A stretch of DNA of 64,000 nucleotides from Betaproteobacteria bacterium (GTDB lineage Bacteria > Pseudomonadota > Gammaproteobacteria > Burkholderiales > SG8-39), in assembly GCA_016195915.1 (NCBI GenBank), contig JACPYS010000031.1, positions 1-64,000 of the forward strand, read 5' to 3'. The translations under genes and the position numbers were made by a program. Shown here piece by piece: positions 18,448 through 33,139 of the stretch. Under the pieces are notes generated by a model. It was not told where the DNA came from and ran no database searches. It worked only from the letters and a program-made list of their open reading frames with translations. The stretch's first letter is position 1, and each line of letters begins with the position of its first letter.

Positions 18448-19696
18448 GGACGCCTCCTGTGATTGCCGCGCGCGTAGCGGCATAGCCGGCGGCGCAGGCG
18501 GCGCGATTCTTTTCCGCGATCGCGCGCGGAACATGCGCAGCCATGCTGCGCGAAAGGGATTCGAGGGATACCGCGTCGGTGAGCGCAGCCACGCAACCCA
18601 GGGACACGATACCCGCCGCGATGGGCTTGCCGGTGTGCTCGCGGGCAAGCGCGGTGATCGGCACCGCGATCGCGCCGGCGGGCAAGCTCGAAACTTCGGC
18701 CGGATCGATGATCACGCGCGCACCAGGTTTGAGGTCCTTCGCAAACCGGTTGGCCGCGCCCTGGCTCAGCACGATGAGCGCGTCCGGATGGTCGGCTGCG
18801 GGGTAGGTGATCGGATCGCTGCTCATCACGACGTCGACCACGCTCGGGCCGCCGCGTGTAGCCGATCCGTAGTCGCCGCGCTGCGTCGCCCACAGGCCTT
18901 CGTGGAAACCCGCGGCCTCGCTCAACACGGTCCCGGCGAGCTTGACGCCATGCCCGCCAAGCCCGGCGATGCGCACCTCGAACCGCGGCACGACGTGCGT
19001 CGGCGATCTGGCCGGCGCCGCGCGCGCCTGACTGCCTGCCACTGCGAGGCGAAGGAGCGGTTTGGTCCATTCCCGGTAAGCATCAAAGTATTCAGGCCAC
19101 GCGTTCTCGCTCAGGACGCCCATCTGCAGCTGCGCGCCGGCCGTGACGCCGATCACCGAGAACCCCGGTGTATCGATCGCCCGGTGAAGCAGATGCGCGA
19201 GTTGGTCCGGATCCTCGAGGTCGGCTCGAGCGACGAAGGACGCACCGAGGGCGGACGCCCATTCGAGCGGGCGCGATGCAGTTTCCAATTCGCGCTGGTA
19301 TGCCGGCATGTCCCAGCCGGCGCGATCCATTGAATCGACCGCCGCCGCGGCGGTAACTTCCGCACGCAACAAGAGTAGCGTCATGCCGATATTGCGACGC
19401 GCGGCGTGGATCAGATGGTTGGTTCCAAGCGTGATGCTGTCCGCGCTCATGATCAGCACCAGCGGAGTGTTCGGCTTTGCCGCGCGCAGGCCGATCGCCA
19501 GCGCGATGTTGCGCCCTGGCGGTCCCTGGATAAACGAGAGCGGGGCGGCACCCTCGCGTCCGGAACGCTGGTAAGGAAGATCCGGCAGGCTCGATAGCAC
19601 GATCGGCGGCTCGCGGTTCGCGTCGAGCCCCATTAGCGTGCAGATGCTGTCCAGCAGCAATTGCCAGGTTGTCGCGAAGCGACGATCGTAGCTCAT
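18440..19696 (-). CDS. 2-oxoacid:ferredoxin oxidoreductase, fused pseudo-beta plus gamma subunit
   Basis: 418 residues in two parts. Residues about 1-215 resemble the TPP beta subunit encoded nearby (TLGTNHLIHAARRNIGMTLL versus SIGGNHLVHAMRRNIGLTAV), but GDGD is replaced by SAD, the NN and YGLTGGQ parts are gone, and the CPGCG motif is absent. It should not bind TPP. Residues about 235-418 are a gamma subunit: RIAGLGGHGVKLAGTVLSEAA, QRGDYGSATRGGPS. The gene overlaps korA-like by ATGA. The pseudo-beta part may be structural. Confidence 0.85.
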   Translation of the reverse strand: MSYDRRFATTWQLLLDSICTLMGLDANREPPIVLSSLPDLPYQRSGREGAAPLSFIQGPPGRNIALAIGLRAAKPNTPLVLIMSADSITLGTNHLIHAARRNIGMTLLLLRAEVTAAAAVDSMDRAGWDMPAYQRELETASRPLEWASALGASFVARADLEDPDQLAHLLHRAIDTPGFSVIGVTAGAQLQMGVLSENAWPEYFDAYREWTKPLLRLAVAGSQARAAPARSPTHVVPRFEVRIAGLGGHGVKLAGTVLSEAAGFHEGLWATQRGDYGSATRGGPSVVDVVMSSDPITYPAADHPDALIVLSQGAANRFAKDLKPGARVIIDPAEVSSLPAGAIAVPITALAREHTGKPIAAGIVSLGCVAALTDAVSLESLSRSMAAHVPRAIAEKNRAACAAGYAATRAAITGGVHV

Positions 19697-20829
19697 GCGG
19701 CCAACCTTGAAACCTTCATGATCGCGGCGAGAATCTGCTCCGGCGTAATCGCGAGACCGTCGGCACGGTTCACACCCTCGACTGCGGCCCGCCCGCCCGC
19801 GAGGCGTTCGACCTCGAGGCGTATCTGGCCGAGGTTCATTTCGGGGACGATGATGCGCTCCACACGGCCTGCGAGTTCACGCATCGCCTTCTCGGGGAAC
19901 GGCCAGATCGTGAGCGGCTTGAACAGACCCGCCCTGGTGCCTTGCGCCCGCGCCAGGGTGACCGCATGCGCGGCGGCGCGCGCGGTTCCGCCATAGGCGA
20001 CAAGCGCGATTTCGGCGTCATCGAGGAGTGCCTCTTCCCACTGCAAAATTTCGTCGAGGTGCGCATCGATCTTGCTGGTCATGTGGCGCCACCAGCGGCT
20101 CACGACTTCGGCATCCTCTGTCGGAAAGCCATGCTCGTCGTGCAACAGTCCCGTGACGTGGTAGCGGTACTCTCGGCCGAACGGCGCGAGCGGCGCTACG
20201 CCGCCCTCGGTGAAGGCGAATGGCTTGTAGGCTTCGGGCGATTCGGCAGGCAGCGGACGGTTCACCACCTGCGGTGTGTCGGGCAGTTCGACCTTCTCCT
20301 TCAACTGCGCGACGATGGCGTCCATCAGCACGATCACCGGCGTGCGGAACTTTTCGGCGAGATTGAATGCGCGCACCGTAAGAACATACGCCTCCTGCAC
20401 GCTGCTCGGCACCAGCACGATGATGGGATGATCGCCGTGCGTGCCCCAGCGCGCCTGCATCACGTCGCCCTGCGCGGCCTTGGTCGGCAGCCCGGTGCTC
20501 GGCCCGACGCGTTGCACGTTGATGACGACGCACGGAATCTCGCTCGCCACCGCGAAGCCGAGGTTCTCCTGCATCAGGGAAAACCCCGGTCCGCTGGTGG
20601 CGGTGGCGCTCTTCAGGCCACCGAGCGATGCGCCGATGATCGCGGCCATGCTTGCAATCTCGTCCTCCATCTGGATGAACACGCCGCCCACTTCGGGCAG
20701 CCGGCCCGAGAGGATCTCCGCGATCTCGGTCGAAGGGGTAATCGGGTAGCCGGCGTAGAAGCGGCAGCCGGCGGCGATCGCGCCCTCGGCCGCGGCTTCG
20801 TTACCGTGCATGAATGAGACTCGGGACAT
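19693..20829 (-). CDS. 2-oxoacid:ferredoxin oxidoreductase alpha subunit (KorA-like)
   Basis: 378 residues. Family segments: GNEAAAEGAIAAGCRFYAGYPITPSTEIAE, EDEIASMAAIIGASLGG, TATSGPGFSLMQE, and a domain II region with KFRTPVIVLMDAIV. Length and order match 2-oxoglutarate:ferredoxin oxidoreductase alpha chains. ATG 20829 overlaps the ferredoxin gene by 29 bases; ATG 20811 is a shorter option. Together with the beta, ferredoxin and gamma parts it forms a complete enzyme turning a 2-oxoacid into acyl-CoA. The lysine-like genes upstream suggest 2-oxoadipate to glutaryl-CoA (inference). Confidence 0.9.
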   Translation of the reverse strand: MSRVSFMHGNEAAAEGAIAAGCRFYAGYPITPSTEIAEILSGRLPEVGGVFIQMEDEIASMAAIIGASLGGLKSATATSGPGFSLMQENLGFAVASEIPCVVINVQRVGPSTGLPTKAAQGDVMQARWGTHGDHPIIVLVPSSVQEAYVLTVRAFNLAEKFRTPVIVLMDAIVAQLKEKVELPDTPQVVNRPLPAESPEAYKPFAFTEGGVAPLAPFGREYRYHVTGLLHDEHGFPTEDAEVVSRWWRHMTSKIDAHLDEILQWEEALLDDAEIALVAYGGTARAAAHAVTLARAQGTRAGLFKPLTIWPFPEKAMRELAGRVERIIVPEMNLGQIRLEVERLAGGRAAVEGVNRADGLAITPEQILAAIMKVSRLAA

Positions 20830-21058
20830 CGGCGATCTCGCTTTCGGGTTCGGGGGGAATGACTTCGATGGCAAAATCCGGGCAGTGGCGCTCGCAGGCC
20901 TTGCAGTTGACGCAGCGCTCGATCGCGTTCGCGAGCGGGTAGCCCTGCGCATCCGGGAAAAGCACCTGCTGCGGGCACCAGGCAATGCACAGGCCGCAGG
21001 CCTTGCACAGTTCCCGATACAGGTTGATTCGATAGATGCCTCGCGCAACGATGTCCAC
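20801..21058 (-). CDS. 2[4Fe-4S] ferredoxin (delta) subunit of the oxidoreductase
   Basis: 85 residues with two standard motifs, CKACGLCIAWCP and CVNCKACERHCP. Such delta chains shuttle electrons from the TPP beta chain to free ferredoxin. It lies between the beta and alpha genes (16-base gap upstream, overlap downstream), the normal korDABC-type grouping. Confidence 0.93.
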   Translation of the reverse strand: MDIVARGIYRINLYRELCKACGLCIAWCPQQVLFPDAQGYPLANAIERCVNCKACERHCPDFAIEVIPPEPESEIADVPSLIHAR

Positions 21059-21074
21059 GTCCGGGTTCTCCGCG

Positions 21075-21980
21075 TCACGCCCGCGCGCGGGCCTTTTGTT
21101 CGAGCATCGCGTAATAGCGGCTGCTGTAGTCGCGCGATCCGTGGCGCTCGAAAATCACGCCGCGTGGCACGCGCGGGTCCTGGTGCACGCCTTGCGCGGT
21201 GGCGGTGCTGACCGGGGTGGCGGGCGACCCGGCGGAAGTGAGCCGCAACGGCGCTGCCGCGCGCCTGAGCAGAACCGGATTCACGCGTCGCGTCTGCTCC
21301 TCCATGCTCTTCATCATCTGCGACGCATCGCCGAGTTCGTTCATGCGTCCGTAGAGAACATGACAGTTGCTGACGACCTCGACCAAAGCGAAGCCGGAAA
21401 CACCCATCGCCCGCTCGATCAACCTGGTCAGCGCTGCGGTTTGATTCACCGTGGCGCGAGCGTAAAACGCAGCGCCCGCGGCACGTGCCAGGGTCTCGAG
21501 ATTCATCGGACGCTCGAACGATCCGGACGCCGCGGTGCTCGTGCGTCCGCCGACGGGCGTGGTGGGTGACGATTGACCGCCGGTCAATCCATACACCGCG
21601 TTGTTGACCACGACGGCCGTGAGCCCGATGTTGCGACGCATGGCGTGGACCAGGTGGTTGCCGCCGATCGACATCGAATCGCCGTCTCCCATCACCACGA
21701 TGACCGACATGTCCGGGCGCGCCATCTTGAGACCCGTGGCGAACGCCGGTGCGCGGCCGTGCGTGGTGTGCAGGGTGTTGAAGTCGGCGTAACCGGACAT
21801 GCGGCCGGTGCAGCCGATGCCCGACACCATTGCCACATTGTTCTTGTCGAGCCCGCGGAAATGCACTGCCTGGGCGATCGAACTCATCACGATGCCCAGG
21901 CCGCAGCCTGGGCACCAGGTCGTCGGAAACGCCTGCGGGCGGAGGTATTCGCGCAGGATAAAGGAGTTCTGCAGTTTCAT
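21075..21980 (-). CDS. 2-oxoacid:ferredoxin oxidoreductase beta subunit (KorB-like)
   Basis: 301 residues. TWCPGCGLGI supplies cluster/TPP-proximal Cys, SGIGCTGRMSGY follows, and the TPP motif is intact: VMGDGDSMSIGGNH ... VVVNNAVYGLTGGQ. The C-terminal half is that of 2-oxoglutarate or 2-ketoisovalerate type beta chains. It starts 20 bases after the aldehyde dehydrogenase stop and is the catalytic partner of the alpha chain. Confidence 0.93.
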   Translation of the reverse strand: MKLQNSFILREYLRPQAFPTTWCPGCGLGIVMSSIAQAVHFRGLDKNNVAMVSGIGCTGRMSGYADFNTLHTTHGRAPAFATGLKMARPDMSVIVVMGDGDSMSIGGNHLVHAMRRNIGLTAVVVNNAVYGLTGGQSSPTTPVGGRTSTAASGSFERPMNLETLARAAGAAFYARATVNQTAALTRLIERAMGVSGFALVEVVSNCHVLYGRMNELGDASQMMKSMEEQTRRVNPVLLRRAAAPLRLTSAGSPATPVSTATAQGVHQDPRVPRGVIFERHGSRDYSSRYYAMLEQKARARA

Positions 21981-22000
21981 GGTTTGAATCTCCGCCCGGC

Positions 22001-23542
22001 CTAGCCGAATTCAAATCTCACGCCCTGCGCCAACGGCATTGCGTTTGAAAAGTTTATTGTATTCGTCGCCCGCCGCATGTAGGCCTTCCACGCATCGCTG
22101 CCCGCTTCGCGGCCGCCACCCGTTTCCTTCTCGCCGCCAAATGCGCCGCCGATCTCCGCTCCGCTCGGTCCGATGTTCACGTTGGCGATACCGCAATCGC
22201 TGCCGCTGGAAGACAGGAACAGTTCTGCTTCGCCGAGGTCCCTGGTAAAAATGGCGGACGCGAGCCCTTGCGGCACGTCGTTGTGTATTGCAACGGCATC
22301 GGTGATCTCGCGATATGCCATGACATAGAGAATCGACGCAAAGGTCTCCGTCCTCACGATCTCTGTCTGGACGCCCATCTCGCAGATCGCGGGTGCGGCG
22401 TAGAACGCGCCCGGCGCGCCGGGAAACTCCCTGCGTTCGCCTCCGAACACGGTGCCGCCCTGCTCGCGCGCGCGATCCAGCGCCGCGCGCATGCCGGCGA
22501 ACGCCTGTTCGTCAATGAGCGGTCCGAGCAGCACGCCGGATTCGAGCGGATTTCCGATCCGCAGATTTCGATACGCCAGCTTCAGCCGTTCAACCAGCCT
22601 GTCGCGAAGGGATTCGTGCACGATCAGACGGCGCAGGGACGTGCATCTCTGCCCCGCGGTCCCGACGGCCGCAAACACGATGGCGCGCACGGCGAGATCG
22701 AGGTCCGCACTCGGCGCCACGATCGCGGCGTTGTTTCCTCCGAGTTCCAGAATCGAACGGCCAAATCGCGAGGCGACGCGCGACGCAACGGCGCGCCCCA
22801 TGCGTGTGCTGCCCGTCGCGCTGATCATCGGCACGCTCGCACTGTCCGCCAAGGCGATCGATGGTCCGGAATCTCCAAGCACGAGCGTACTCAATGGGCG
22901 TGGCAGGTGCGGAAATCCCGATAGCGTTCGCTCCAGCAGCGCCTGGCAGGCGAGCGCGCTCAGGCAGGCCTTTTCCGACGGCTTCCAGACCAGCGTGTTC
23001 CCGCAAACCAACGCAAGCGCGGCGTTCCATCCCCAGACTGCGACGGGAAAATTGAATGCTGTAATGACGCCGCAGACGCCGAGCGGATGCCAAGTCTCCA
23101 TCATTCGGTGTCCGGGCCGTTCGGATGCGATGGTCAGCCCGTAGAGCTGTCGCGACAGGCCGGCCGCAAAAACGCAGATGTCGATCAGCTCCTGTACTTC
23201 ACCCAGCCCCTCGGAAAGAATCTTTCCGGTCTCGATCGAGATCAGCTCGCCGAGCGCCGCCTTGTGATCGCGCACCGACTGCCCGAAACTGCGCACCACT
23301 TCCCCGCGGGCAGGCGCCGGGGTGGCGCACCACGGCACAAAGGCGAGACGCGCATTTTCGATCGCCTGCCCAAGCTCTTGCGGCGATGCCGCCCGGAGCG
23401 TGCATATCGTTTCCCCCGTGACCGGCGTGCGCGAGCGCAGCCCATCGCCCGCTACGCTGCGGAGATCGACGCCGAGCTGCCCGAGCAATGAGCGCGCGCG
23501 CTCAGGCAGCGCGCCTGGATCCGGCAACTGTTCCTGGCGCAT
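22001..23542 (-). CDS. Aldehyde dehydrogenase, ALDH7/piperideine-6-carboxylate dehydrogenase type
   Basis: 513 residues from ATG 23542; a Met at 23566 is an alternative. Motifs: TAFNFPVAVWGWN, ATGSTRMG, catalytic ELGGNNA Glu and GTAGQRCTSLRR Cys, and the C-terminal NIGPSGAEIGGAFGGEKETG that is characteristic of antiquitin/ALDH7 proteins. This class oxidises 2-aminoadipate semialdehyde (in equilibrium with piperideine-6-carboxylate) to 2-aminoadipate. Its 5' end overlaps the lysine-dehydrogenase-like gene by 41 bases, supporting consecutive steps. Confidence 0.9.
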   Translation of the reverse strand: MRQEQLPDPGALPERARSLLGQLGVDLRSVAGDGLRSRTPVTGETICTLRAASPQELGQAIENARLAFVPWCATPAPARGEVVRSFGQSVRDHKAALGELISIETGKILSEGLGEVQELIDICVFAAGLSRQLYGLTIASERPGHRMMETWHPLGVCGVITAFNFPVAVWGWNAALALVCGNTLVWKPSEKACLSALACQALLERTLSGFPHLPRPLSTLVLGDSGPSIALADSASVPMISATGSTRMGRAVASRVASRFGRSILELGGNNAAIVAPSADLDLAVRAIVFAAVGTAGQRCTSLRRLIVHESLRDRLVERLKLAYRNLRIGNPLESGVLLGPLIDEQAFAGMRAALDRAREQGGTVFGGERREFPGAPGAFYAAPAICEMGVQTEIVRTETFASILYVMAYREITDAVAIHNDVPQGLASAIFTRDLGEAELFLSSSGSDCGIANVNIGPSGAEIGGAFGGEKETGGGREAGSDAWKAYMRRATNTINFSNAMPLAQGVRFEFG

Positions 23543-24635
23543 TCGCCTTTTCCTCGTTGATGGCATAGTGGCGGCCGAACCGGTTGCCGAGAAACATGTC
23601 AAGCGAAGCCTGTTCCTGGCGCACGAAGCCGCGGTCCGGGATCTTTCCCGCGACCATCAGATCGACCATCGCGCAGATCCCGGCAGCCGTGGTGAGCTGA
23701 ATTGCCGAAAGCAGCTTCCCGTTCACCTCCCTGGCGTAGACTTTTCGGACAAATGTTTCCTGCGTCAGGCGAGCGTTCTTCTGTCCGGTCACCGTGACGA
23801 AGATGAGAACGAGATCCTGCGTGGTCATTGGAATCGCCGCCTCGAGGACGTCCTTCAGGACGCCTCGATGCAGGCCGAGCCGCAGATCGCGAATGAGGAC
23901 CTTCACGATGTCGCGGTGTCCGGGATACCGGACCGTCTTGTAGTTCAGGTTCTCGACGCTTCCCGCAAGGGATTCGCAGAGCGTACCGAGTCCGCCGGAG
24001 GTGTTGAAGGCCTCATAGGTCACGCCGTCCAGCGAGAACTCCTCGGCTTCCTCGAGCGCCTGCACCTCGCGCAGCGTCCCGTCGACGATGGCCTCGCAGG
24101 GATTGCAGTATTCATTGATCAAGCCATCGGTGCTCCACGTCAGGTTGTATTTCAGCGCGTTGCTCGGATAGATCGGCAGCGCTCCAACCCGCATCTTTAC
24201 ATCCCTGAGGGAATCGAAATGCCGCGCCGCGCTGTTGGCCGCAATCGAGATGAAACCCGGGGCGAGGCCGCACTGCGGAACGAAGGCGGTCTGGGCTCCC
24301 AGTGCGAGTTGCTTCACCGCGCGCGTACTCTCGACATCTTCGGTCAGATCGAAATAGTGCACCCCGGCTTGTTTGGCCGCACTCGCGATCAGTGGGGTCA
24401 GATGGTACGGGCACGCCGAAATCACGAATTGCTGATTCTCGAGAAGCGGCACGAGTTCCGCTGCCGAGGCGAGAACGCAGGCGCGAGTACGGAATCCCTG
24501 GTCGCGAAAAACGCGCAGGCGCTCCGGGTCCTGGTCGATGATCGTCAGCGCATAGTCGCCCGTCTCATCGAGAAGAGCCACGACGGCTTCGCCGATCTTC
24601 CCCGCACCCGCCAACGTCAATCTGGTCCTTTCCAT
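23502..24635 (-). CDS. Saccharopine-dehydrogenase-family protein, lysine 6-dehydrogenase-like
   Basis: 377 residues, close to L-lysine 6-dehydrogenase of Geobacillus (about 385). N-terminal NAD(P) motif LTLAGAGKIGEAV. Shared segments with that family: AGVHYFDLTED, FVPQCGLAPGFISI, VGALPIYPSN, STDGLINEY, EAFNTSGGLGTL and LNYKTVRYPGH. Such enzymes oxidise the epsilon-amino group of lysine, or act on saccharopine. ATG 24635 has GGAG seven bases upstream. The next gene would oxidise its cyclised product. Confidence 0.83.
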   Translation of the reverse strand: MERTRLTLAGAGKIGEAVVALLDETGDYALTIIDQDPERLRVFRDQGFRTRACVLASAAELVPLLENQQFVISACPYHLTPLIASAAKQAGVHYFDLTEDVESTRAVKQLALGAQTAFVPQCGLAPGFISIAANSAARHFDSLRDVKMRVGALPIYPSNALKYNLTWSTDGLINEYCNPCEAIVDGTLREVQALEEAEEFSLDGVTYEAFNTSGGLGTLCESLAGSVENLNYKTVRYPGHRDIVKVLIRDLRLGLHRGVLKDVLEAAIPMTTQDLVLIFVTVTGQKNARLTQETFVRKVYAREVNGKLLSAIQLTTAAGICAMVDLMVAGKIPDRGFVRQEQASLDMFLGNRFGRHYAINEEKANAPGTVAGSRRAA

Positions 24636-24671
24636 GTCAATACTCCGTTCTCGGTGGATCATCAGGCTCGC

Positions 24672-25025
24672 TTACGGGCTCCCGCCCGATAGACGCTCGC
24701 CGGCCGCAGCCACTGCCGATTTCGCGGCAGGGGGCTGCCACGAAACGCTGACGGCGCCGCTGATGAAAGTCTGGCACGCCATGCGATAGCCGTTCGCCAG
24801 GTCATCCTCCGACAGGTGCTTGCGCTCCTTGGCTTTGACCGCGTCCGTGTGCTCCAGACCCTGCTCGATTCTGCACTTGCAGGTTCCGCAGAGGCCGGCG
24901 CCGCATTTGAACGGAATGCCTCCTTTCTCGCGCAGCGATACTCGCAGGATGTTGCTGTTCTCCGGCGCGGAAACGACCTTGCCGCCATTGGTAATGAAGG
25001 TGACGGTGATCATCGAATGCGGCAT
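24672..25025 (-). CDS. [2Fe-2S] plant-type ferredoxin
   Basis: 117 residues. Cluster motif CGAGLCGTCKC (CX4CX2C) near residue 41 with the fourth Cys in YRMACQTF near 83, normal for xylene-monooxygenase-type ferredoxins. The last 25 residues are an Ala/Gly-rich tail. Second of two [2Fe-2S] ferredoxins in this run. No reductase or Rieske oxygenase is present; the diiron oxidase across the divergent promoter is a possible acceptor (inference). Confidence 0.9.
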   Translation of the reverse strand: MPHSMITVTFITNGGKVVSAPENSNILRVSLREKGGIPFKCGAGLCGTCKCRIEQGLEHTDAVKAKERKHLSEDDLANGYRMACQTFISGAVSVSWQPPAAKSAVAAAGERLSGGSP

Positions 25026-25065: not shown

Positions 25066-25359
25066 CTAGCGCTTCACCAGCGAGATATCCATGTCGCCGA
25101 AGTGCATGAGCCCTTCGAGCTCATGCCTCGCCTGTTCGACCGTCTCGAACTTCGGCAGGAACTTGGAGGGGACGCGATTCACGAGCGGAGGAGAGGACTC
25201 GTCCACGATGGTGATTTTCGCTTCGGCCTTCAGTTCTGCGATGACGAAATGGGCCCTCTTGCGTCCGCAGAAAATGTAGTCGTACGCCTCGACCGGCAAC
25301 AAGGCTTCGCCGAGTTCGGTCCTGAACTGTCCGGGCTTGCTGGTCAATATCACGTACAT
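25066..25359 (-). CDS. Unknown 97-residue protein between two ferredoxins
   Basis: Not recognised. The sequence is soluble and mixed alpha/beta: MYVILTSKPGQFRTELGEAL, IFCGRKRAHFVIAELKAEAK, TIVDESSPPLVNRVPSKFLP, ending MDISLVKR. One Cys only, so no cluster of its own. Its start overlaps the upstream ferredoxin gene by 10 bases and the second ferredoxin follows after 40, so it is cotranslated with them. It may be a small electron-transfer or oxygenase accessory protein. Confidence 0.7.
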   Translation of the reverse strand: MYVILTSKPGQFRTELGEALLPVEAYDYIFCGRKRAHFVIAELKAEAKITIVDESSPPLVNRVPSKFLPKFETVEQARHELEGLMHFGDMDISLVKR

Positions 25360-25688
25360 GGGTACGTCTCAGCCGGTATGCTGTTTGCGGGCGGGACATC
25401 GTCCTGGGCCAGTTCCAGATCGTGATTGATCCACAGTTGGCACGCCAGTCGATAACCCTGTTCCAGTTTGGCTCCCAGGAGTTTTTTCTCCTTCCAATTG
25501 GGCTCGGGAAGATATTCGCCACCGCTGATGATCCTGCTCGCGCACTTGGCGCATTTGCCCATTCCGCAACCGTACGAAAGGTTCGGATAGGGAAACTGCC
25601 GGATGCCGGCTCTGACGACGAGGTTGGTGTTCTCCTTGACGTCACCGTGATAGACCTGGCCACCCTTGTGAAGGACGATTTTCGGCAT
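25350..25688 (-). CDS. [2Fe-2S] ferredoxin, first gene of the leftward run
   Basis: 112 residues from ATG 25688, which has AAGGGG about five bases upstream. Cluster motif GCGMGKCAKC (CX4CX2C) with the last Cys in YRLACQLW. The insert with GGEYLPEPNWKEKKLLGAK between third and fourth Cys is longer than in plant ferredoxins. It faces the divergent promoter region shared with the diiron oxidase operon. Confidence 0.88.
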   Translation of the reverse strand: MPKIVLHKGGQVYHGDVKENTNLVVRAGIRQFPYPNLSYGCGMGKCAKCASRIISGGEYLPEPNWKEKKLLGAKLEQGYRLACQLWINHDLELAQDDVPPANSIPAETYPCT

Positions 25689-25754: not shown

Positions 25755-25948
25755 CAACGTATACAATATACTAAATTTTCCGTGAGATCAAGTGAGTTAA
25801 CGAATGCGCCGTGGACGTTCACGCCGTCCCAGGTCCATACGGATGGATGCATACTTATCCGTTAGTAAACAAATTGGTACGAATACATTATAGAATCGTT
25901 ATAAGTTTCCTGGCCAACCGTTGACATGAGACAACATTAGTATACTAT
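25755..25948. promoter_or_regulatory. Divergent promoter region with GTATAC-cored operators
   Basis: AT-rich, unlike its surroundings. Plus strand: -35 TTGACA (25921-25926), 16 bases, -10 TACTAT (25943-25948). The perfect palindrome TAGTATACTA (25938-25947) covers this -10. On the other side, CGTATACAAT and CAATATACTA overlap at 25758-25773, near a weaker minus-strand promoter (TTGATC at 25791-25786, TATATT at 25770-25765, gap 15). GTATAC-centred palindromes suit FadR/FCD-type GntR repressors, and one is encoded at the end of the rightward operon. Binding is inferred. Confidence 0.6.
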
Positions 25949-25982: not shown

Positions 25983-26753
25983 ATGTCTCAGCTAATGAAC
26001 CAGGATGATTTCCGGACCGCGCTCGAAAACGCCATCAAGGGCAAGAGCGCCAACAAGGCGCCGTTCAGCGTTGCCTGGGCCAGCGGCAAGCTCACCCGCG
26101 CACACCTGGCGCGCTGGGCGGAGAACCACTATCACTACGTTGGTCCGTTTGCCGAGTATCTGGCGTATGTGTACGCCAAGATGCCCGCGCGTTACATCGA
26201 GGCCAAGGACTTCCTGCTGCAGAACATGTACGAGGAAGAGATCGGCGGCGACCGCCATACCGATTTGCTGATCCGTTTTGCCGAGGCCTGCGGCACCACC
26301 CGCGCGCGCGTCATCGACCCCGAGAACATGTCGGCGACCACTCGCGGCCTGCAAAGCTGGTGCTATGCCGTTGCCATGCGCGAAGACCCCATCGTCGCCG
26401 TCGCCGGCCTGGTGGTCGGCCTGGAGTCGCAGGTCCCGTCGATCTACCGCAGACAGACCCCGACGCTGCGGGAGAAGTACAAGTTCACCGATGAAGAAGT
26501 CGAGTTCTTCGACCTGCACATCGTCTCGGACGAGATCCACGGGGAGCGCGGTTACCAGATCGTCCTGGCGCACGCGGACACACCCGAACTGCAACGACGC
26601 TGCCTGAATATCTGCGAGGTGGGTGCCCAGATGCGACTGCTCTACACCACCGCCCTCTACCACGACTACGTGGCGAAGGAGATCCCGCTGGCCGAACTCG
26701 ACATGGCCGGGAAAGACATTCCGAGCGCTGAACGCGAACTGCTCCAGGCATGA
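25983..26753 (+). CDS. Heme-oxygenase-like diiron oxidase (HDO; PqqC/TenA superfamily)
   Basis: 256 residues, all-helical. Ligand pattern E85-x6-H92, E148, H179-x3-D183-x2-H186 matches the six diiron ligands of CADD-type HDOs (E81, H88, E142, H174, D178, H181) with the same spacing within each motif, so it should be an O2-activating diiron enzyme and not PqqC. Known members hydroxylate, decarboxylate or fragment amino acids and fatty acids (e.g. SznF, UndA, BesC). GAGGAG lies upstream of ATG 25983. It is the first gene of its operon and overlaps the next by ATGA. Confidence 0.85.
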   Translation: MSQLMNQDDFRTALENAIKGKSANKAPFSVAWASGKLTRAHLARWAENHYHYVGPFAEYLAYVYAKMPARYIEAKDFLLQNMYEEEIGGDRHTDLLIRFAEACGTTRARVIDPENMSATTRGLQSWCYAVAMREDPIVAVAGLVVGLESQVPSIYRRQTPTLREKYKFTDEEVEFFDLHIVSDEIHGERGYQIVLAHADTPELQRRCLNICEVGAQMRLLYTTALYHDYVAKEIPLAELDMAGKDIPSAERELLQA

Positions 26754-28210
26754 ACGCGGCGCTCGTCGAGGAGTTCCGGAACCTCATTGACGGCGAGTGG
26801 ATCCGGAGCGCGACGGGAAAGACGTTCGACAACGTCAATCCCGCGGATACACGCGACATCGTGGGCCGGTTTCAGGCATCTTCCCCCGCGGATGCCAATG
26901 CGGCCGTAGAAGCGGCGTCGTCGGCATTCGAGGGATGGAAACGAACGCCGATATCCAGGCGTGCCGGAGTGCTTCAGCGTGCGGCGGACTATCTCGAGGC
27001 CAATGCCGCGAAGTTTGCCGAGGATCTGACCCGGGAAGAAGGCAAGTCCCTGGGCCTGAGCAAAGACGAAGTCCTGCGCTCGGCGCAGACGCTGAGGTTC
27101 TACGCGATCGAAGGACAATCCTTTTCCGGCGAAACCTTTCCCAACGACGATACGCAGATGCTCGTCTACAGCCTAAGGGAGCCGTTGGGCGTGGTGTGCG
27201 TCATCACGCCGTGGAATTTTCCGATTTCGATTCCTTCAAGAAAGATCGCACCGGCGCTGATTACCGGAAATACGGTGATCTTCAAACCTTCCTCGGATGC
27301 CCCCTTGATCGGATACCGGCTCACCGAAGCGATGGTCAAGGCAGGAATGCCGAAAGGAGTGTTCAATTTCGTCACCGGGAGGGCCGTCGATGTCGGCCCG
27401 ACGATCACCGAGTCGCCCGCCGTTCGTGCCGTGTCGTTTACCGGCTCGAGCGCGGCCGGCGAACACATCCATCGCTCGGTCACCTTGACGACGCGCACGC
27501 AATTGGAGCTTGGCGGCAAGAACCCCCTGATCGTCATGGAAGATGCCGATCTCGACGAGGCGGTCGATCTGGCGGTCAAGGGAGGCCTGTCCTTGACCGG
27601 TCAAGCCTGCACGGGCACCAGCCGCGTCCTGGTGATGGCCGCGGTCAAGGCGCGATTCACCGAAAGACTTCTCGCCAGGGTCAAGGCACTGAAAATCGGC
27701 AGCGGGATGTCGAGCGGAATGGATATCGGCCCGCTTGCCACGCCGAAGCAACTTGAAACCGTACTGGCGTATATCGAAATCGGAAAGCGGGAAGCGACCC
27801 ACCTCTGCGGCGGCGAACGTTTAAGGGGCGAAGCCTTCGAGCGAGGTTACTACGTGACTCCCGCGATCTTCACCGACGTCACGCAGACGATGCGCATTGC
27901 CCGCGAAGAGATATTCGGACCGGTGCTTTCGATCATCGAAGCCGTCAGTTACGAAGACGCAATCGCCAAGGCAAACGACACCGAATACGGATTGTCGGCC
28001 GCAATTGCAACGCGCAATCCGCGCTACATGCACAGGTTCGCGCAGGACATCCAGGCGGGCACCGTGAAGATCAACAGGACCACCACGGGAAATCTCGTCA
28101 ACGCGCCATTCGGCGGCCTGAAACGCTCCAGCACCTCGACATTTCGCGAGTCCGGACGCACCGGCCTGGAGTTCTACACCCAGATCAAGACGGTCTATCA
28201 GGGCTGCTGA
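26750..28210 (+). CDS. Aldehyde dehydrogenase, 2-oxoglutarate-semialdehyde/succinate-semialdehyde type
   Basis: 486 residues. Motifs: VITPWNFPISIPSRKIAPAL, SFTGSSAAG, catalytic Glu in QLELGGKNP and Cys in GQACTGTSR, EEIFGPVL. The closest pattern is 2-oxoglutarate semialdehyde dehydrogenase. It overlaps the diiron oxidase gene by four bases, so it probably oxidises an aldehyde that the oxidase forms or that arises one step later. Confidence 0.9.
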   Translation: MNAALVEEFRNLIDGEWIRSATGKTFDNVNPADTRDIVGRFQASSPADANAAVEAASSAFEGWKRTPISRRAGVLQRAADYLEANAAKFAEDLTREEGKSLGLSKDEVLRSAQTLRFYAIEGQSFSGETFPNDDTQMLVYSLREPLGVVCVITPWNFPISIPSRKIAPALITGNTVIFKPSSDAPLIGYRLTEAMVKAGMPKGVFNFVTGRAVDVGPTITESPAVRAVSFTGSSAAGEHIHRSVTLTTRTQLELGGKNPLIVMEDADLDEAVDLAVKGGLSLTGQACTGTSRVLVMAAVKARFTERLLARVKALKIGSGMSSGMDIGPLATPKQLETVLAYIEIGKREATHLCGGERLRGEAFERGYYVTPAIFTDVTQTMRIAREEIFGPVLSIIEAVSYEDAIAKANDTEYGLSAAIATRNPRYMHRFAQDIQAGTVKINRTTTGNLVNAPFGGLKRSSTSTFRESGRTGLEFYTQIKTVYQGC

Positions 28211-28229: not shown

Positions 28230-28709
28230 ATGAAAACCGTTTTGAAGCTGGAACTTGCGGAAGCGCGTTGCATGGTACATGCCGCTTTTCGCAAGGCCGA
28301 GGAAATCGGGGTTACGGAAACGGTCTGCATCGTCGATGACGGCGGTTGCCCGATTGCCCTCGAGCGCATGAACGGCGCGCGTATTACCGGTCCGCAGATT
28401 GCGTGGAACAAGGCGTTTACCGCCGCCGGACACAAGCGCTCCACGCACCTGTTCAACCAGCCGCCCAATGGGCCCGCCCTTCCCGGCAATGAGGCATTCG
28501 GGATTCAATGGAGCTTCGAGGGAAAATTTGCGGTCTTCGTCGGCGGCTTTCCGATCGTGGTGAATGGGGAAGTCGTCGGAGGCATCGGCTTGAGCGGCGG
28601 AAATGGCGAACAGGACACCCAATGCGGGATCGCTGCCTTGCAGGCGCTGAACGACCTGCTGTCGCCGCAGAACCATGCGGTCATGGTCGAAGTCGATATC
28701 AAGAAGTGA
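28230..28709 (+). CDS. GlcG/HbpS-family (DUF336) protein
   Basis: 159 residues. Family segments: LELAEARCMVHAAFRKAEEI, VCIVDDGGCPIALERM, and the Gly-rich VNGEVVGGIGLSGG followed by EQDTQCGIAALQAL. HbpS members bind heme; most catabolic-cluster members (GlcG, PduO C-domain type) are uncharacterised or bind corrinoid or heme. Located 19 bases after the aldehyde dehydrogenase. Function in this pathway unknown. Confidence 0.85.
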   Translation: MKTVLKLELAEARCMVHAAFRKAEEIGVTETVCIVDDGGCPIALERMNGARITGPQIAWNKAFTAAGHKRSTHLFNQPPNGPALPGNEAFGIQWSFEGKFAVFVGGFPIVVNGEVVGGIGLSGGNGEQDTQCGIAALQALNDLLSPQNHAVMVEVDIKK

Positions 28710-28804: not shown

Positions 28805-29764
28805 ATGAAGCAGTGCGTTCTTTCCCTGATTGCGGCCTGCCTGCTTGCGGCGGCCGTGCCCGCGCAATCCCAACAGTACCCGGTCAAGCCCGTTCGGGTC
28901 ATCGTCAGCACCGTGCCCGGGCCACTGGATACTTTCGCGCGGATGGTCTGCGACAAGATCGCCGCTTCGCTGAAGCAGCCACTGGTGATCGAAAATCGCG
29001 CCGGAGCAGGCGGCAATATCGCAACCGAGTTGGTTGCCAAGTCGCCGGCGGATGGCTACACGTTGCTGTTTGCGATCGATACCACGTTCACCGTCAATCC
29101 GTCGGTCTACAAGACGCTGCCCTTCGATCCGGCGAAGGACTTCGCCACCATCTCCGTGCCGGTCATCTACGGCCAGTTGCTTGCGGTGCATCCCTCGGTA
29201 CCCGCCCAATCGGTTGCCGAACTCGTTGCCCTGGCCAAGCAGAAGAAGCTGACCTACGCCTCCGGTGGCAACGGAACCCCAAGTCATCTGTCGTCCGCCT
29301 ATTTCCTCGCCACGGCAGGCATCGACATGACTCACGTCCCCTACAAGGGCACCGGGCAGTCGGTGATCGACGTGGTGGCGGGGCAGGTCGATACCATCTT
29401 TGCCGTCGTGACCGGCGTGCTGCCGCAGGTGAAGGCGGGCAGGCTGCGCGCCCTCGGCATTTCGAGCGCCAAGCGCTCCGCCCTTGCACCCGATGTTCCG
29501 ACCATAGCGGAATCGGGCTACAGCGGATTCGATGTTTCCTTCGCATACGCGCTGATGGCTCCGGCAGGCACGCCCGATGAGATCGTGCAGTCGCTCAGCC
29601 GCGAGGTGCAGCGCGCCCTGGCGCAACCCGATGTGCAGGAGAAGAACCGGACTTTCGATTACGTCGTGACCGGCATGGATCCCAAACAGTCGGCCGCGTG
29701 GCTGAGGGAGAACCGCGAGCGCTGGGCAGGCGTAGTGCAGCGCGCCGGCATCTCCGCCAACTGA
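28805..29764 (+). CDS. Bug-family tripartite tricarboxylate transporter receptor
   Basis: 319 residues with a signal peptide (CVLSLIAACLLAAAVPAQSQ). Bug features: YPVKPVRVIV, VIENRAGAGGNIATE, SPADGYTLLF, DMTHVPYKGTGQSV, LAPDVPTIAESGY. It is a periplasmic binding protein for a carboxylate-bearing ligand. No TctA/TctB membrane genes lie in the window, as is usual for the many orphan Bug genes of Burkholderiales. GAGGAGGACATGAT places the start. Confidence 0.93.
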   Translation: MKQCVLSLIAACLLAAAVPAQSQQYPVKPVRVIVSTVPGPLDTFARMVCDKIAASLKQPLVIENRAGAGGNIATELVAKSPADGYTLLFAIDTTFTVNPSVYKTLPFDPAKDFATISVPVIYGQLLAVHPSVPAQSVAELVALAKQKKLTYASGGNGTPSHLSSAYFLATAGIDMTHVPYKGTGQSVIDVVAGQVDTIFAVVTGVLPQVKAGRLRALGISSAKRSALAPDVPTIAESGYSGFDVSFAYALMAPAGTPDEIVQSLSREVQRALAQPDVQEKNRTFDYVVTGMDPKQSAAWLRENRERWAGVVQRAGISAN

Positions 29765-29797
29765 GCAGCCTTGAACCGCGAGAGGGTTAGCGTTGCG

Positions 29798-30520
29798 ATG
29801 AACGATACTGAACAGAACGCCGGAGAAGGCGCCGTCGCGCAGAAGGTTCTGGTGGGGCAGCGACATACCTCTCTGAGTGCTCTCGTAGCCGACGAGCTGC
29901 GGCGGGCGATCCTCACCCACAGGATGCAACCAGGCGAGCGGCTGGTTGAAGACAAGCTCTCGGCCGATCTCGGCGTTTCGCGGGTTCCGATCAGGGAGGC
30001 GCTGCGCGTGCTCGCGAGCGAGGGTCTGGTGGAGGTTCAGCCGCGGCGGGGAGCTTCGGTCGCCGCGTTTACGGACGAAATCGTGCGGGACATGGTGGAA
30101 TCGCGCGCGATGCTGGAAGGCGTGAATGCCAAGCTTGCTGCCCGCATTCGTGATCCGCAGATCCTCGCGGAGCTGACCGTGGTGCTTGCCAAGGGCAGGG
30201 CCGCGGCGGAACGCGCCACCCTCGAAGAGTTGATCGGGCTGAACGGTCAATACCACGATCTGCTCGCCAAGGCGGGGCGTAACAGGGTATTGCGCGAAAT
30301 CATGCGTGGCCTTCGCGAGCGGACCGCCTTGCTCTTTTCCGGGGTGAGGACCGTGTCGCGCGCTCGCGAGGAGTGGGAAGAGCACGCCCAGATCCTGGCG
30401 GCGATCGTGGAGGGTGACGAAGAGCTCGCCGGGCTGCTGGCGACTCGCCACGTGCGCCGTGCGGCTGAGGCTGCTCTTGCCAATTTGCCGCAGGCACGTG
30501 AGTTGCGGCGCGTGGAATAG
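29798..30520 (+). CDS. GntR-family (FCD-domain) transcriptional regulator
   Basis: 240 residues from ATG 29798; a TTG at 29771 would add nine. The winged helix part is LSALVADELRRAILTHRMQPGERLVEDKLSADLGVSRVPIREALRVL. The FCD effector domain follows (MVESRAMLEGVNAK, HDLLAKAG, EWEEHAQILAAI) with His residues for a metal. Last gene of the diiron-oxidase operon and the probable regulator of the GTATAC sites upstream. Confidence 0.92.
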   Translation: MNDTEQNAGEGAVAQKVLVGQRHTSLSALVADELRRAILTHRMQPGERLVEDKLSADLGVSRVPIREALRVLASEGLVEVQPRRGASVAAFTDEIVRDMVESRAMLEGVNAKLAARIRDPQILAELTVVLAKGRAAAERATLEELIGLNGQYHDLLAKAGRNRVLREIMRGLRERTALLFSGVRTVSRAREEWEEHAQILAAIVEGDEELAGLLATRHVRRAAEAALANLPQARELRRVE

Positions 30521-30548: not shown

Positions 30549-31478
30549 TCAGTACCCCGCTTCGACATCCACCAGCGCGAGCGGCGTCAGCCCGTTGCGC
30601 AAGCGGTTGATGTTCTCCACGACCATCGCCGTCGCCGTGCGCGGTTCGGTGAGGGCAGCGGTATGCGGGGTCATGAATACGCCCGGGTGCGTCCAGTAAC
30701 GGTGCTCCACGGGAAGCGGCTCGGTCTCGAACACGTCCAGATAGGCCCGCGCAACCTGCCCGGAATCGAGCGCCGCGAGCAGATCCTCATCCACCACATG
30801 CGCACCGCGCGCGACGTTGATGACAGCGCCGCCCCTCGGCATCAGCGCCAGCGTGGCTGCATTCAGGATGCCGCGCGTCTCCGGAGTCAGCGGCAGGAGG
30901 CACACCACGACGTTGCAGACGGGCAGCATCCGTGCGAGCCCTTCCGAGCCCGCGCAGCTCTCGACCCCGATCACGCTCTTCGGCCGGCGGCTCCAGCCGC
31001 GCACCCTGAAGCCGAACGAGCGCAGCATCGGGCCCGCCTCGCCGCCGAGTTCCCCCAGCCCGAGCAGGCCGACGGTCCGGTCCGCAGCCATGGATTGCGG
31101 CAGCCTGTTCCACTCGCGCGCGGACTGCTGACGCCGGTAGACGTAATGGTGGCGATGGAAATCGATCACGTGCGAGAGCACGCTCTCGCACATCGCCGCA
31201 ACCATGCCCCGGTCGATGCAGCGCGCAAGCGGCACGTGGCGCGGCAGGTCATCTTGGGCGAGCAGCCCATCCACGCCCATCCACAGCGACTGGACAAGCT
31301 TGAGGTTCGGCAGCCGTGCCAGCGCGCCGGCGGGGGGCACGGCGACGAACGCAATGTCGATCGCCGCCGGATCGCCGATCTCGGGCCAGACGAAGAAGCG
31401 CTCCTGCGGCAGCGCCTTTTCGAGCAGCGGAAGCCAGCGATCGGGACTCTCGATCGTGGAGAGAAACGCAACGTTCAT
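30549..31478 (-). CDS. D-2-hydroxyacid dehydrogenase, GhrA-like
   Basis: 309 residues. It shares with glyoxylate/hydroxypyruvate reductase A the segments VGLLGLGELGGEAGPMLRSF, CLLPLTPETRGIL, INVARGAHVVDEDLLAALDS and TPHTAAL, plus the C-terminal end ...EAGY. Catalytic Arg (NVARG), Glu (FETEPLP) and His (TPHTA) are present. ATG 31478 overlaps the broken Bug gene by four bases, so they were one transcript. Reduces or oxidises a 2-oxoacid/2-hydroxyacid. Confidence 0.9.
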   Translation of the reverse strand: MNVAFLSTIESPDRWLPLLEKALPQERFFVWPEIGDPAAIDIAFVAVPPAGALARLPNLKLVQSLWMGVDGLLAQDDLPRHVPLARCIDRGMVAAMCESVLSHVIDFHRHHYVYRRQQSAREWNRLPQSMAADRTVGLLGLGELGGEAGPMLRSFGFRVRGWSRRPKSVIGVESCAGSEGLARMLPVCNVVVCLLPLTPETRGILNAATLALMPRGGAVINVARGAHVVDEDLLAALDSGQVARAYLDVFETEPLPVEHRYWTHPGVFMTPHTAALTEPRTATAMVVENINRLRNGLTPLALVDVEAGY

Positions 31479-32214
31479 CAGTCTTCGGGCTTGAAGCCGG
31501 AGGCGCGGATCACCGGCCCCCACTTGTCATAATCGGCCCTGTGGATCGCGGCGAGTTCCGCCGGACCCAACCCGGTAGGCTCGAGAAACAGGTTGGCGAG
31601 TCTTTCCTGCATGTCGGCCGCGCGGATGCCGTCCACCGCGGCCTTCGAGAGCTTTGCCACCAGTTCAGGCGGCGTGCCGGCAGGCGCGTAGAGCGCATAC
31701 CAGGCGCTGCCTTCGATGTCGTAGCCCAGTTCCCTGAACGTGGGCACTTCGGGCAGGAAGCGCGAGCGCTTTCCGCCCGACGCGGCCAGCGCGCGCGCCT
31801 TGCCGGATTTGTGCAGCTGCGCGATGTCGGAGAGCACCACCGAGGCGGCGGAGATCTGCCCCCCCACCAGCGCCTGTAACGAAGGAGCGGTTCCCTTGAA
31901 CGGCACGTGGTTCATCTCGATGCCGGCGGTGCGCGCGAACATCACCGCGAAAAAATGCGGCAGGCTGCCCGCGCCCGCAGAAGCGTAATCGCCCATTCTC
32001 GGGTCCTTTTTCACCAGTTCCACGTAGTCCCTCAACGTGGCGGCGGGCACGCTCGCGTTCACCGCCAGGCCGAGGTCGAAATTCGCCAGGTGCGCGAAAG
32101 CGTGTCGCTGGTGGCACCCGGGGGGTAGCCGAGCACGATCCTGACGACACGGTCCTGGGCCCCGGCAGGCAGCGCCACGGCAAGGAACACTGCAAGCATC
32201 ATGGCGCGAAACAT
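31478..32214 (-). pseudogene. Bug-family receptor, internal deletion with frameshift
   Basis: The signal peptide and N-terminus are in one frame (MFRAMMLAVFLAVALPAGAQ, VRIVLGYPPGATSDTLSR), ending near 32100. The rest is in another frame (FAHLANFDLGLAVNASVPA to RASGFKPED). About 70-75 residues between them that other Bug proteins have (ENRPGAGG, PDGYTLL region) are missing. The full span is 737 bases where about 960 are normal, so the loss is not a multiple of three. No functional protein is expected. Assembly error is the alternative. Confidence 0.85.
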
Positions 32215-32278
32215 GGACTCTCCATACGGGCCGCCGGGTGGGCTGCGATGGTAGCATTCCACCAGGAGGATACCGACC

Positions 32279-33139
32279 ATGCCGATCCGGAACTTCAATG
32301 AAAAGACGCTCACCGCGGAGGTGCTCGCGCGCCTGCACGCCACCTCCGATCCGCGCCTCAAGCAGGTGATGACGAGTTTCGTCAAGCACTTGCACGCATT
32401 CGTGCGCGAGGTGAGGCCCACGCCCGAAGAATGGTTTCGCGGCATCGAGTTCCTCACGGAAACGGGCAAGTGGTGCGACGACAAGCGCCAGGAATACATC
32501 CTGCTATCGGACACCATCGGCGTTTCGATGCTGGTGGATTTCATCAATTACGGAGATACGAAGAACGCGACCGAGTCCACGGTCCTGGGGCCGTTCTTCG
32601 TGGAGGGCGCGCCGGAGTTGCCCATGGGGGAAACCATCGCGAAGCCTGGCACGCCCGGCGAGCCGTGCACCATGCGCGGCAGTCTCAAAGACACCAAAGG
32701 CAAGCCGGTGGCGAACGCGGTGATCGACGTCTGGCAGGGGGCCGGCGACGGCTTCTACGATGTGCAGAAACAGGAGGGAATGAATCTGCGCGCGCGCTTT
32801 CGCACCGGCGCCGATGGCAAGTTCTGGTTCCGCTGCGTGCGTCCGGTGAGTTACCCGGTGCCCAACGACGGGCCGGTGGGAAAGATGCTGGTGGCGACCG
32901 GGCGCCACCCGATGCGTCCCGGGCATCTTCATTTCAAGTTCACCGCACCCGGTTGCGCGACGCTGGTCACGCACCTGTTCGTGAAGGGCGACAAGTACCT
33001 CGATTCGGACGCCGTGTTCGGCGTGAAGAATTCGCTGGTGGTGAATTTCAGGAAGGCGAAGAGCGGCGAGTACCAGGCGAACTACGACTTCGTTTTGTTG
33101 CCGGAGAAGCGCACGCGACCCGCGCGCAAGCGCAGGTGA
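32279..33139 (+). CDS. Intradiol ring-cleavage dioxygenase (catechol/hydroxyquinol type)
   Basis: 286 residues. An N-terminal helical dimer domain (LKQVMTSFVKHLHAFVREVR, TEWFRGIEFLTETG region) precedes the beta-barrel. Fe(III) ligands appear as Tyr in GDGFYDVQ, Tyr in RPVSYPVPNDGPVG, and His pair in MRPGHLHFKF. The dimer domain places it with catechol or hydroxyquinol 1,2-dioxygenases, not with protocatechuate dioxygenase. It opens aromatic diols to muconate-type acids. First gene of a plus-strand operon. Confidence 0.92.
   Translation: MPIRNFNEKTLTAEVLARLHATSDPRLKQVMTSFVKHLHAFVREVRPTPEEWFRGIEFLTETGKWCDDKRQEYILLSDTIGVSMLVDFINYGDTKNATESTVLGPFFVEGAPELPMGETIAKPGTPGEPCTMRGSLKDTKGKPVANAVIDVWQGAGDGFYDVQKQEGMNLRARFRTGADGKFWFRCVRPVSYPVPNDGPVGKMLVATGRHPMRPGHLHFKFTAPGCATLVTHLFVKGDKYLDSDAVFGVKNSLVVNFRKAKSGEYQANYDFVLLPEKRTRPARKRR

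Follow-up and report, generated by a model that had tools for sequence, protein, structure and literature searches.

An HDO with all six metal ligands and conserved ferredoxin, orphan and DUF336 partners: a candidate multicomponent monooxygenase system

The locus described here bears on how haem-oxygenase-like dimetal oxidases/oxygenases (HDOs) are supplied with electrons: what kind of enzyme is the putative dimetal oxygenase that it encodes, and which proteins work with it? In published passages of a review (PMC13108848), HDOs figure chiefly as biosynthetic enzymes, of which about a dozen have been validated. Part of a study of mangotoxin biosynthesis (PMC13185094) presents MboAB as possibly the first case of an HDO characterised together with a dedicated redox partner. 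The window analysed here (the whole stretch of 64,000 nucleotides) carries an HDO within a conserved gene set from which likely electron donors can be named, along with an orphan protein and a DUF336 protein that co-occurs strictly with the HDO (Table 1). Laboratory strains exist in genera that have this set, such as Cupriavidus and Bradyrhizobium.

Table 1. Features of the window discussed in the text, with coordinates and strand
Feature	Position	Strand	Description
L-piperidine-6-carboxylate dehydrogenase	22001..23602	-	NF050084 764.8 bits, cut-off 730; start uncertain (TTG listed)
Saccharopine-dehydrogenase-fold protein	23502..24662	-	ORF start 9 bases beyond Fd1 stop
Fd1	24672..25025	-	[2Fe-2S] ferredoxin; Pfam Fer2 5.1e-13
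sm97	25066..25359	-	97-aa orphan protein between both ferredoxins
Fd2	25350..25688	-	[2Fe-2S] ferredoxin, CxxxxCxxC; ATG 25688 is the likelier start
Second GTATAC palindrome	25759..25764	.	Divergent intergenic region, before likely Fd2 start
Palindrome TAGTATACTA	25938..25947	.	Putative GntR operator; its GTATAC core is 37 bases upstream of the HDO
HDO	25983..26753	+	256 aa; putative dimetal oxygenase, from Pfam PF14518, ligand conservation and fold
Aldehyde dehydrogenase (ALDH)	26750..28210	+	Overlaps HDO stop by 4 bases (ATGA)
HbpS-like DUF336 (EfgA/GlcG family) protein	28230..28709	+	159 aa; Pfam PF03928 5e-33
TctC-type solute-binding protein	28805..29764	+	Tripartite carboxylate transporter; Pfam PF03401 8.3e-68
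GntR/FCD-family regulator	29771..30520	+	Pfam GntR 1.1e-17, FCD 4.3e-22

The HDO frame starts with ATG and has GAGGAG directly upstream. The sequence-only reading had claimed that this protein keeps six diiron ligands with the spacing seen in CADD, and that PqqC lacks them; both claims are borne out, the second for relatives that we take to be of PqqC type. E85, H92, E148, H179, D183 and H186 are all found at the positions claimed, and an HMMER alignment with CADD (1RCW, E 9.5e-16) pairs them with E81, H88, E142, H174, D178 and H181, which we take to be the metal ligands of CADD. E148 and its counterpart E142 sit in aligned ESQVP and ESQIP motifs, and the ligand spacing is 7/56/31/4/3 in the HDO versus 7/54/32/4/3 in CADD. 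The ligand alignment comprised the window HDO, 79 close orthologs and further relatives, with a row obtained for 51 of 53 loci (none for L101 and L105). All six ligands, a set of three His and three carboxylates as in HDOs, are invariant in the 79 close orthologs, which were drawn from the top 80 of 487 matches, and in 12 further ortholog rows that possibly overlap with these 79. They are retained as well in two remoter relatives, of 44% and 32% identity. In contrast, none of the six is present in any of the 19 rows of a deep clade, where the columns read H, G, F, R, A and D. These rows carry no annotation, and we take them to be of PqqC type because they form one deep clade and a solved PqqC, 5vrc, has the same R, A and D in the columns of residues 179, 183 and 186 of the window HDO. 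Conservation in orthologs and relatives, together with absence from the PqqC-type clade, argues that the ligand set is not due to chance. E84 and E86 are likewise invariant in alignment A1, which holds the HDO of 48 of the 79 loci plus the window; either might be a candidate for the extra, seventh Glu ligand of the 3H/4C subset of HDOs (SznF type). Judged from its residues, the HDO is likely an O2-using two-metal enzyme with every expected metal-binding position in place, although its metal content is something that we infer. The O2-dependent oxidation of an amino acid or acid that had been proposed for it is possible by analogy with the habits of the family.

The same reading held that an automated 'PqqC-like' label would be wrong, and this stands in part. 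The NCBIfam PqqC equivalog TIGR02111 fails on the HDO (50 bits, cut-off 240), and two plasmid orthologs are annotated 'iron-containing redox enzyme family protein'. Pfam PF14518 (Haem_oxygenas_2) matches at 2.4e-35 (122.4 bits). However, PF03070 (TENA/THI-4/PQQC), a broad model that spans the wider superfamily, also passes (6.8e-10, 39.5 bits, cut-off 22), so a pipeline relying on it could misname the protein. PqqC and TenA-type reactions are called metal-independent in the review passages (PMC13108848). Identity as a PqqC is ruled out by the ligands, none of which occurs in the PqqC-type rows, and by the TIGR02111 score.

The fold is consistent with this assignment. A comparison of the predicted structure with CADD and UndA had been proposed, and the AlphaFold model of the HDO, built from alignment A1 (mean pLDDT 86.0), matches both. 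Its less confident parts hold two of the ligands, E85 (block 81-90, pLDDT 63) and E148 (block 141-150, pLDDT 77). The model is predicted to have the haem-oxygenase helical-bundle fold, with matches that include CADD, UndA, FlcD, HrmI, BesC and PolF. The top Foldseek match is FeII/MnII CADD (E 1.8e-7; TM 0.72/0.86, with 0.86 on the target; rmsd 2.7). VIA-align Z scores are 25.0 for PqqC, 24.0 for CADD 1RCW (rmsd 2.0, 209 aligned), 21.7 for UndA, 21.2 for FlcD, 21.1 for HrmI and 19.2 for BesC. PqqC and CADD are thus tied, and the subfamily is not decided by the fold alone. Together, the sequence and fold alignments with metal-bound CADD imply that the six residues would gather around two metals.

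Could the HDO then be a self-sacrificing p-aminobenzoate (pABA) synthase of the CADD/PabS family? CADD of C. trachomatis and NePabS share the six ligands, the E-x6-H spacing, the ESQxP motif and the fold with the window HDO, and the best PDB sequence matches of the HDO are the 4-aminobenzoate synthases 9pj4 and CADD 1RCW (E 1.6e-16 and 9.5e-16). In CADD, according to part of PMC11965152, Tyr27 is cleaved and Lys152 supplies the amine. At the corresponding positions all 79 orthologs have Ser (S29) and Gln (Q158), whereas Tyr and Lys both occur in 15 of 15 rows of a sister clade, which also retains the six ligands; we call this clade pABA-synthase-like because all 15 rows have the pair. The NCBIfam CADD model TIGR04305 likewise fails on the HDO (93.6 bits, cut-off 200). 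In the tree, 29 rows of HDO orthologs form a clade of their own (100/99), the sister-clade rows with Tyr and Lys, 15 in number, form another (97/86), and the PqqC-type rows are apart, so the phylogeny that had been suggested separates the orthologs from both groups. This tree took a random sample of 18 from the 79 orthologs; rows L110, L111, L140, L141 and L142 were omitted, the last three of which duplicate genes already included; the 32% and 44% relatives are on long branches of unsure placement, and the bootstrap had not settled. The HDO thus differs from CADD and NePabS in lacking the sacrificed Tyr and Lys, in its clade and in its catabolic-type neighbours. We reject pABA synthesis on the missing Tyr and Lys (S29, Q158) and give it next to no chance.

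The larger result concerns the gene neighbourhood, which has a conserved triad of two ferredoxins with an orphan protein, sm97, between them. Near the HDO in 79 loci, tblastn at set thresholds detected Fd2 in 78, sm97 in 77 and Fd1 in 76, and the three are contiguous, on one strand and in constant order in 76. Each is present in all 59 loci whose flanks exceed 6 kb on each side of the HDO. Among the genes scanned, Fd2 adjoins the HDO on the same strand in 46 loci and is divergent, as in the window, in eight. The 79 loci derive from the best 80 of 487 matches, so that all these neighbourhood counts describe close orthologs. The Fd2 frame as listed begins with TTG at 25766, but judging from where homolog alignments begin, the ATG at 25688 is more likely the true start. 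Beyond the close orthologs, no ferredoxin match was found in the 16-kb stretch that holds the HDO of the 44% relative (genome G139).

Co-occurrence across genomes shows the same partnership. Among 399 genomes of the order to which the window belongs, ten have an HDO of at least 79% identity, and the next matches (E up to 1e-15) reach at most 33%; among 398 genomes of the phylum, the sole intermediate HDO is the relative just mentioned, at 46% by that search and 44% by tblastn. sm97 occurs in nine of the 399 genomes, all within the ten that have an HDO ortholog, and in none of the 389 others (Fisher p 1.6e-17). A DUF336 ortholog (at least 76% identity) is found in the same ten genomes as the HDO ortholog, the next best match being 42% (Fisher p 4e-20); both p values disregard the kinship of the genomes. 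In one of the ten (G723) the DUF336 gene and the HDO are on different contigs. The genome without sm97, when the ten were searched, is G558. It has the HDO, Fd2, Fd1 and the DUF336 protein, with Fd2 and Fd1 side by side, and sm97 is therefore not strictly required.

sm97 belongs to an orphan family whose fold is predicted with confidence. Its AlphaFold model (mean pLDDT 93.8), from an alignment (A2) that covers 49 of the 78 loci with sm97 plus the window, has seven strands and one helix. We found no Pfam match at 0.01 and, when the threshold was loosened to 5, TacA1 alone at E 0.2, which we take as chance. No PDB sequence match was found either, and structure searches gave a best Foldseek E of 0.26 and a best VIA Z of 4.1 over 1000 chains chosen by Foldseek; given that choice of chains, a known fold is possible. 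Small proteins that tune diiron oxygenases occur in other systems, and this analogy suggests that sm97 may be an effector.

The other constant partner is the DUF336 protein, whose PF03928 match (114.3 bits, cut-off 25) places it in the same family as EfgA, HbpS, GlcG and NahX. Its PDB matches are, in order, 2a2l (2.5e-20), the PduO-type protein 5cx7, NahX 9jth and, in fourth place, EfgA 6bws. A homolog is present in 74 of the 79 loci and in 58 of the 59 with flanks longer than 6 kb on each side. Also, in the 44% relative, a DUF336 protein (56%) and a GntR regulator (58%) are beside the HDO. EfgA binds formaldehyde, with K57, S114 and D121 implicated, in the available part of PMC8153426. These residues align with K61, S122 and D129 of the window protein, a mapping that assumes that the chain numbering is that of the paper plus 20. 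The kept residues say little on formaldehyde, because the set is common in the family; the same source describes it as largely conserved across DUF336 proteins. In the same part of PMC8153426, DUF336 genes are placed in glycolate, propanediol and chloroaniline clusters, some are said to be in catabolic clusters that produce aldehydes, and EfgA is described as having no conserved gene context. The window-type protein, in contrast, is tied to one oxygenase.

Other neighbours recur less regularly. In the 79 loci we counted GntR in 70, a putative permease in 57, ALDH in 54, a BenC-like reductase in 32, an ornithine-cyclodeaminase family gene in 29, a TauE-family gene in 24, an amidase in 21, TctC in 16 and a gamma-glutamyltranspeptidase-like gene in six. 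The ALDH figure includes that of L005, a full-length protein of 44% identity below the bit threshold. ALDH was not found in 25 of the 79 loci and a clustered reductase not in 47, some loci being short. The reductase has Fer2, FAD and NAD domains; the window cluster lacks a reductase gene, and homologs of 34-42% are found elsewhere in its genome. The putative permease (524 aa) owes its name solely to its hydrophobic sequence, as Pfam gave no match for it up to E 5, and it offers no clue to the substrate. An annotated example of the set is the record of Caballeronia sp. SBC2, which lists two 2Fe-2S proteins flanking a hypothetical protein, the HDO, an ALDH and a heme-binding protein, then a further 2Fe-2S protein (the reductase, by tblastn), an ornithine cyclodeaminase family protein, an MFS protein and GntR.

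Some loci and flanks differ in content. In four loci from MAGs, two of Acetobacteraceae and two of Rhodospirillales (L064, L072, L078 and L080), ALDH gave no match, and the HDO is surrounded by a molybdenum-hydroxylase-type gene, an NCBIfam PRK04334 protein and a thioesterase-like gene, each family having been scanned on one representative. Around the HDO of the 44% relative (L141), seven ORFs were scanned and an SDR was the sole Pfam match, giving no clue to a substrate. In the window itself, a second ORF that looks TctC-like and shares tblastn places with such genes is at 31478-32395 (-). At 32279-33139 (+) there is a catechol-1,2-dioxygenase-like gene that scores below its cut-offs.

Twelve ORF clusters are common to at least 20 loci: the HDO, ferredoxins, sm97, GntR, DUF336, ALDH, reductase and amidase, plus the ornithine-cyclodeaminase family, the TauE family, MFS and the putative permease, with rarer neighbours (fewer than 20 loci) mostly unannotated. 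Mean pairwise identity in the same loci is 87% for the HDO (minimum 80%; 300 random pairs, and biased upwards since the loci were picked by HDO similarity), 80% for DUF336, 73% for ALDH and 57-68% for Fd1, Fd2, sm97 and GntR. These figures bear on whether the HDO is biosynthetic, acting in desaturation, C-C cleavage or N-oxygenation as BesC, PolF and HrmI do, with the ferredoxins merely regenerating the diferrous site. According to the review passages (PMC13108848), characterised HDOs serve in the biosynthesis of natural products and cofactors, and the second oxidation by MboA needs the Fe2S2/flavin reductase MboB (PMC13185094, in part). However, no synthetase, ligase or peptide-tailoring gene is among the 12 clusters, and the conservation of the HDO over Alpha- and Betaproteobacteria would be unlike that of most natural-product clusters. 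We therefore regard a biosynthetic role as unlikely.

Two further alternatives draw on the neighbours. Stress protection, as a non-catabolic role, would follow the example of Acinetobacter baumannii DtpC, a predicted HDO that part of PMC13232832 ties to desiccation and oxidative stress; yet DtpC is cotranscribed there with the catalase gene katE, whereas ferredoxins, ALDH, an FCD-type GntR and transporter-like genes recur here, and we think the chance of such a role slimmer than that of any other reading save pABA synthesis. The TauE-family gene raises the other possibility, a desulfonating or heteroatom-removing HDO that turns R-CH2-SO3- into an aldehyde and sulfite, with export by TauE/SafE. 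In several loci (for example L013 and L041) this gene stands beside the ALDH and ornithine-cyclodeaminase-family genes, but 55 loci gave no TauE match, the window HDO has no such gene next to it that we could see, and the TauE/SafE family exports other anions too. Desulfonation has a slim chance, hardly better than that of stress protection.

A palindrome, too, is conserved. In 71 of the 79 loci a GTATAC lies no more than 400 bases ahead of the HDO, versus five of 289 upstream regions of control ORFs from the same loci, these controls being mechanically picked ORFs of at least 150 aa, more than 2.5 kb from core genes, rather than annotated genes. In 200 first-order Markov simulations, at most eight of 79 loci had it (mean 2.9). 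In six of the eight loci without it the motif stands instead ahead of the putative permease gene, which in turn comes before the HDO, and the remaining two (L032, L071) have none in the stretches searched. Two are present at the 44% relative. The 64-kb window has three, not unusual in total, of which two are within the HDO/Fd2 intergenic region. The natural reading is that GTATAC would be a GntR operator.

We propose that the HDO is the oxygenase component of a multicomponent monooxygenase, working in a catabolic pathway that its substrate induces and in which an aldehyde is released, a reading to which we give a little less than even odds (about 45%). The genetics of the partnered system are solid among close orthologs, and the mechanism is a proposal. 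The conserved partner genes, the most informative evidence and one that the sequence-only reading had left unmentioned, are the reason for proposing catabolism with a dedicated electron supply, and the DUF336 partner together with the ALDH is the main reason for proposing an aldehyde product. A carboxylate-type substrate would be imported by TctC, the putative permease or MFS, and the GntR/FCD regulator would be released from the GTATAC operators on binding substrate or product. Electrons from NAD(P)H might pass via a BenC-type reductase, clustered in part of the relatives and encoded elsewhere in the window genome, and the two [2Fe-2S] ferredoxins would then deliver them to the dimetal site, with sm97 perhaps as a docking or effector protein. 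The HDO would activate O2 and hydroxylate or cleave the substrate next to a heteroatom to give an aldehyde. The DUF336 protein may bind or process this aldehyde, and ALDH or another oxidase would convert it to an acid for central metabolism. We count the four MAG loci that have a molybdenum-hydroxylase-type gene and lack an ALDH match in favour of this scheme. The ALDH gives no clue to the substrate; its nearest NCBIfam models, alpha-ketoglutaric semialdehyde and 2,5-dioxovalerate dehydrogenases, are below cut-off. Taken together, the cluster points to a degradation pathway not yet described, rather than to antibiotic or cofactor synthesis.

How does this system compare with known ones? The HDO is a new member of a known superfamily, and the partnered system is a new form of HDO system. 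The general plan is that of soluble multicomponent monooxygenases of the methane and toluene type, which combine an oxygenase of ferritin-like fold with a ferredoxin, a reductase and possibly a small effector; the window oxygenase has the haem-oxygenase fold instead, and no effector of those enzymes is among the listed structure matches of sm97. MboA/MboB is alike in that an HDO has a dedicated [2Fe-2S]-containing electron donor. MboB, however, is one flavin/Fe2S2 reductase, whereas the window type has two separate ferredoxins and an orphan protein, outside a peptide cluster, and a BenC-like reductase accompanies it in only part of the loci. UndA, BesC, PolF, HrmI and FlcD share the fold and the HDO ligand pattern; the portions of literature compared mention neither a ferredoxin triad nor a DUF336 partner for these enzymes, which does not prove absence. 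PqqC shares the fold, and the PqqC-type rows lack the six ligands. We recognised no description of an HDO-ferredoxin-sm97 cluster in the open-licence PMC literature, judged mostly from listings. That this is the first multicomponent HDO monooxygenase, with two dedicated ferredoxins, a new class of small effectors represented by sm97, an obligate DUF336 aldehyde partner and a place in carbon catabolism, and hence a haem-oxygenase-fold analogue of the ferritin-fold multicomponent monooxygenases, is a bolder claim, which we hold to be doubtful though well worth entertaining. The findings suggest a catabolic role for the HDO family and a role for DUF336 proteins in aldehyde-releasing pathways.

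In the window, Fd1 is followed on the same strand by a run of lysine-type genes (19693-24662, -), for which a 2-oxoadipate route is possible. The saccharopine-dehydrogenase-fold protein has its longest strong PDB match to PH1688 (residues 3-262), and we take it to be lysine 6-dehydrogenase-like. An HDO that releases lysine from a modified form of it, or that acts as a lysine oxidase, with these genes completing the route in the window genome, would fit their closeness to Fd1 and the L-piperidine-6-carboxylate dehydrogenase, which passes its NCBIfam cut-off; BesC, too, acts on a lysine derivative in the review passages (PMC13108848). The 2-oxoacid:ferredoxin oxidoreductase-like beta subunit, on the other hand, is below every NCBIfam cut-off listed, and tblastn detected no counterpart of these three genes beside any of the 79 other HDOs, so that they look like a local addition and a lysine link is at best local. 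We consider this link very unlikely, if less so than desulfonation, and on the same tblastn result we do not take lysine catabolism to be what the conserved system does.

The ortholog clade intersperses sequences from Alpha- and Betaproteobacteria, a mixing that suggests transfer between lineages. Two loci carry two opposite HDO copies in one cluster: L026 (5903-6631, -, and 10001-10729, +) and L077 (10001-10735, +, and 18910-19644, -). Within each pair the proteins are identical, while six of 729 and 13 of 735 bases differ, which suggests gene conversion or strong constraint. Genome G558 also has an HDO paralog (L142; 7041-7688, -) of 33% identity with all six ligands, which has Thr and Met at the places of the CADD Tyr and Lys and whose neighbours include several TctC-like genes and a 3-hydroxyisobutyrate-dehydrogenase-type gene.
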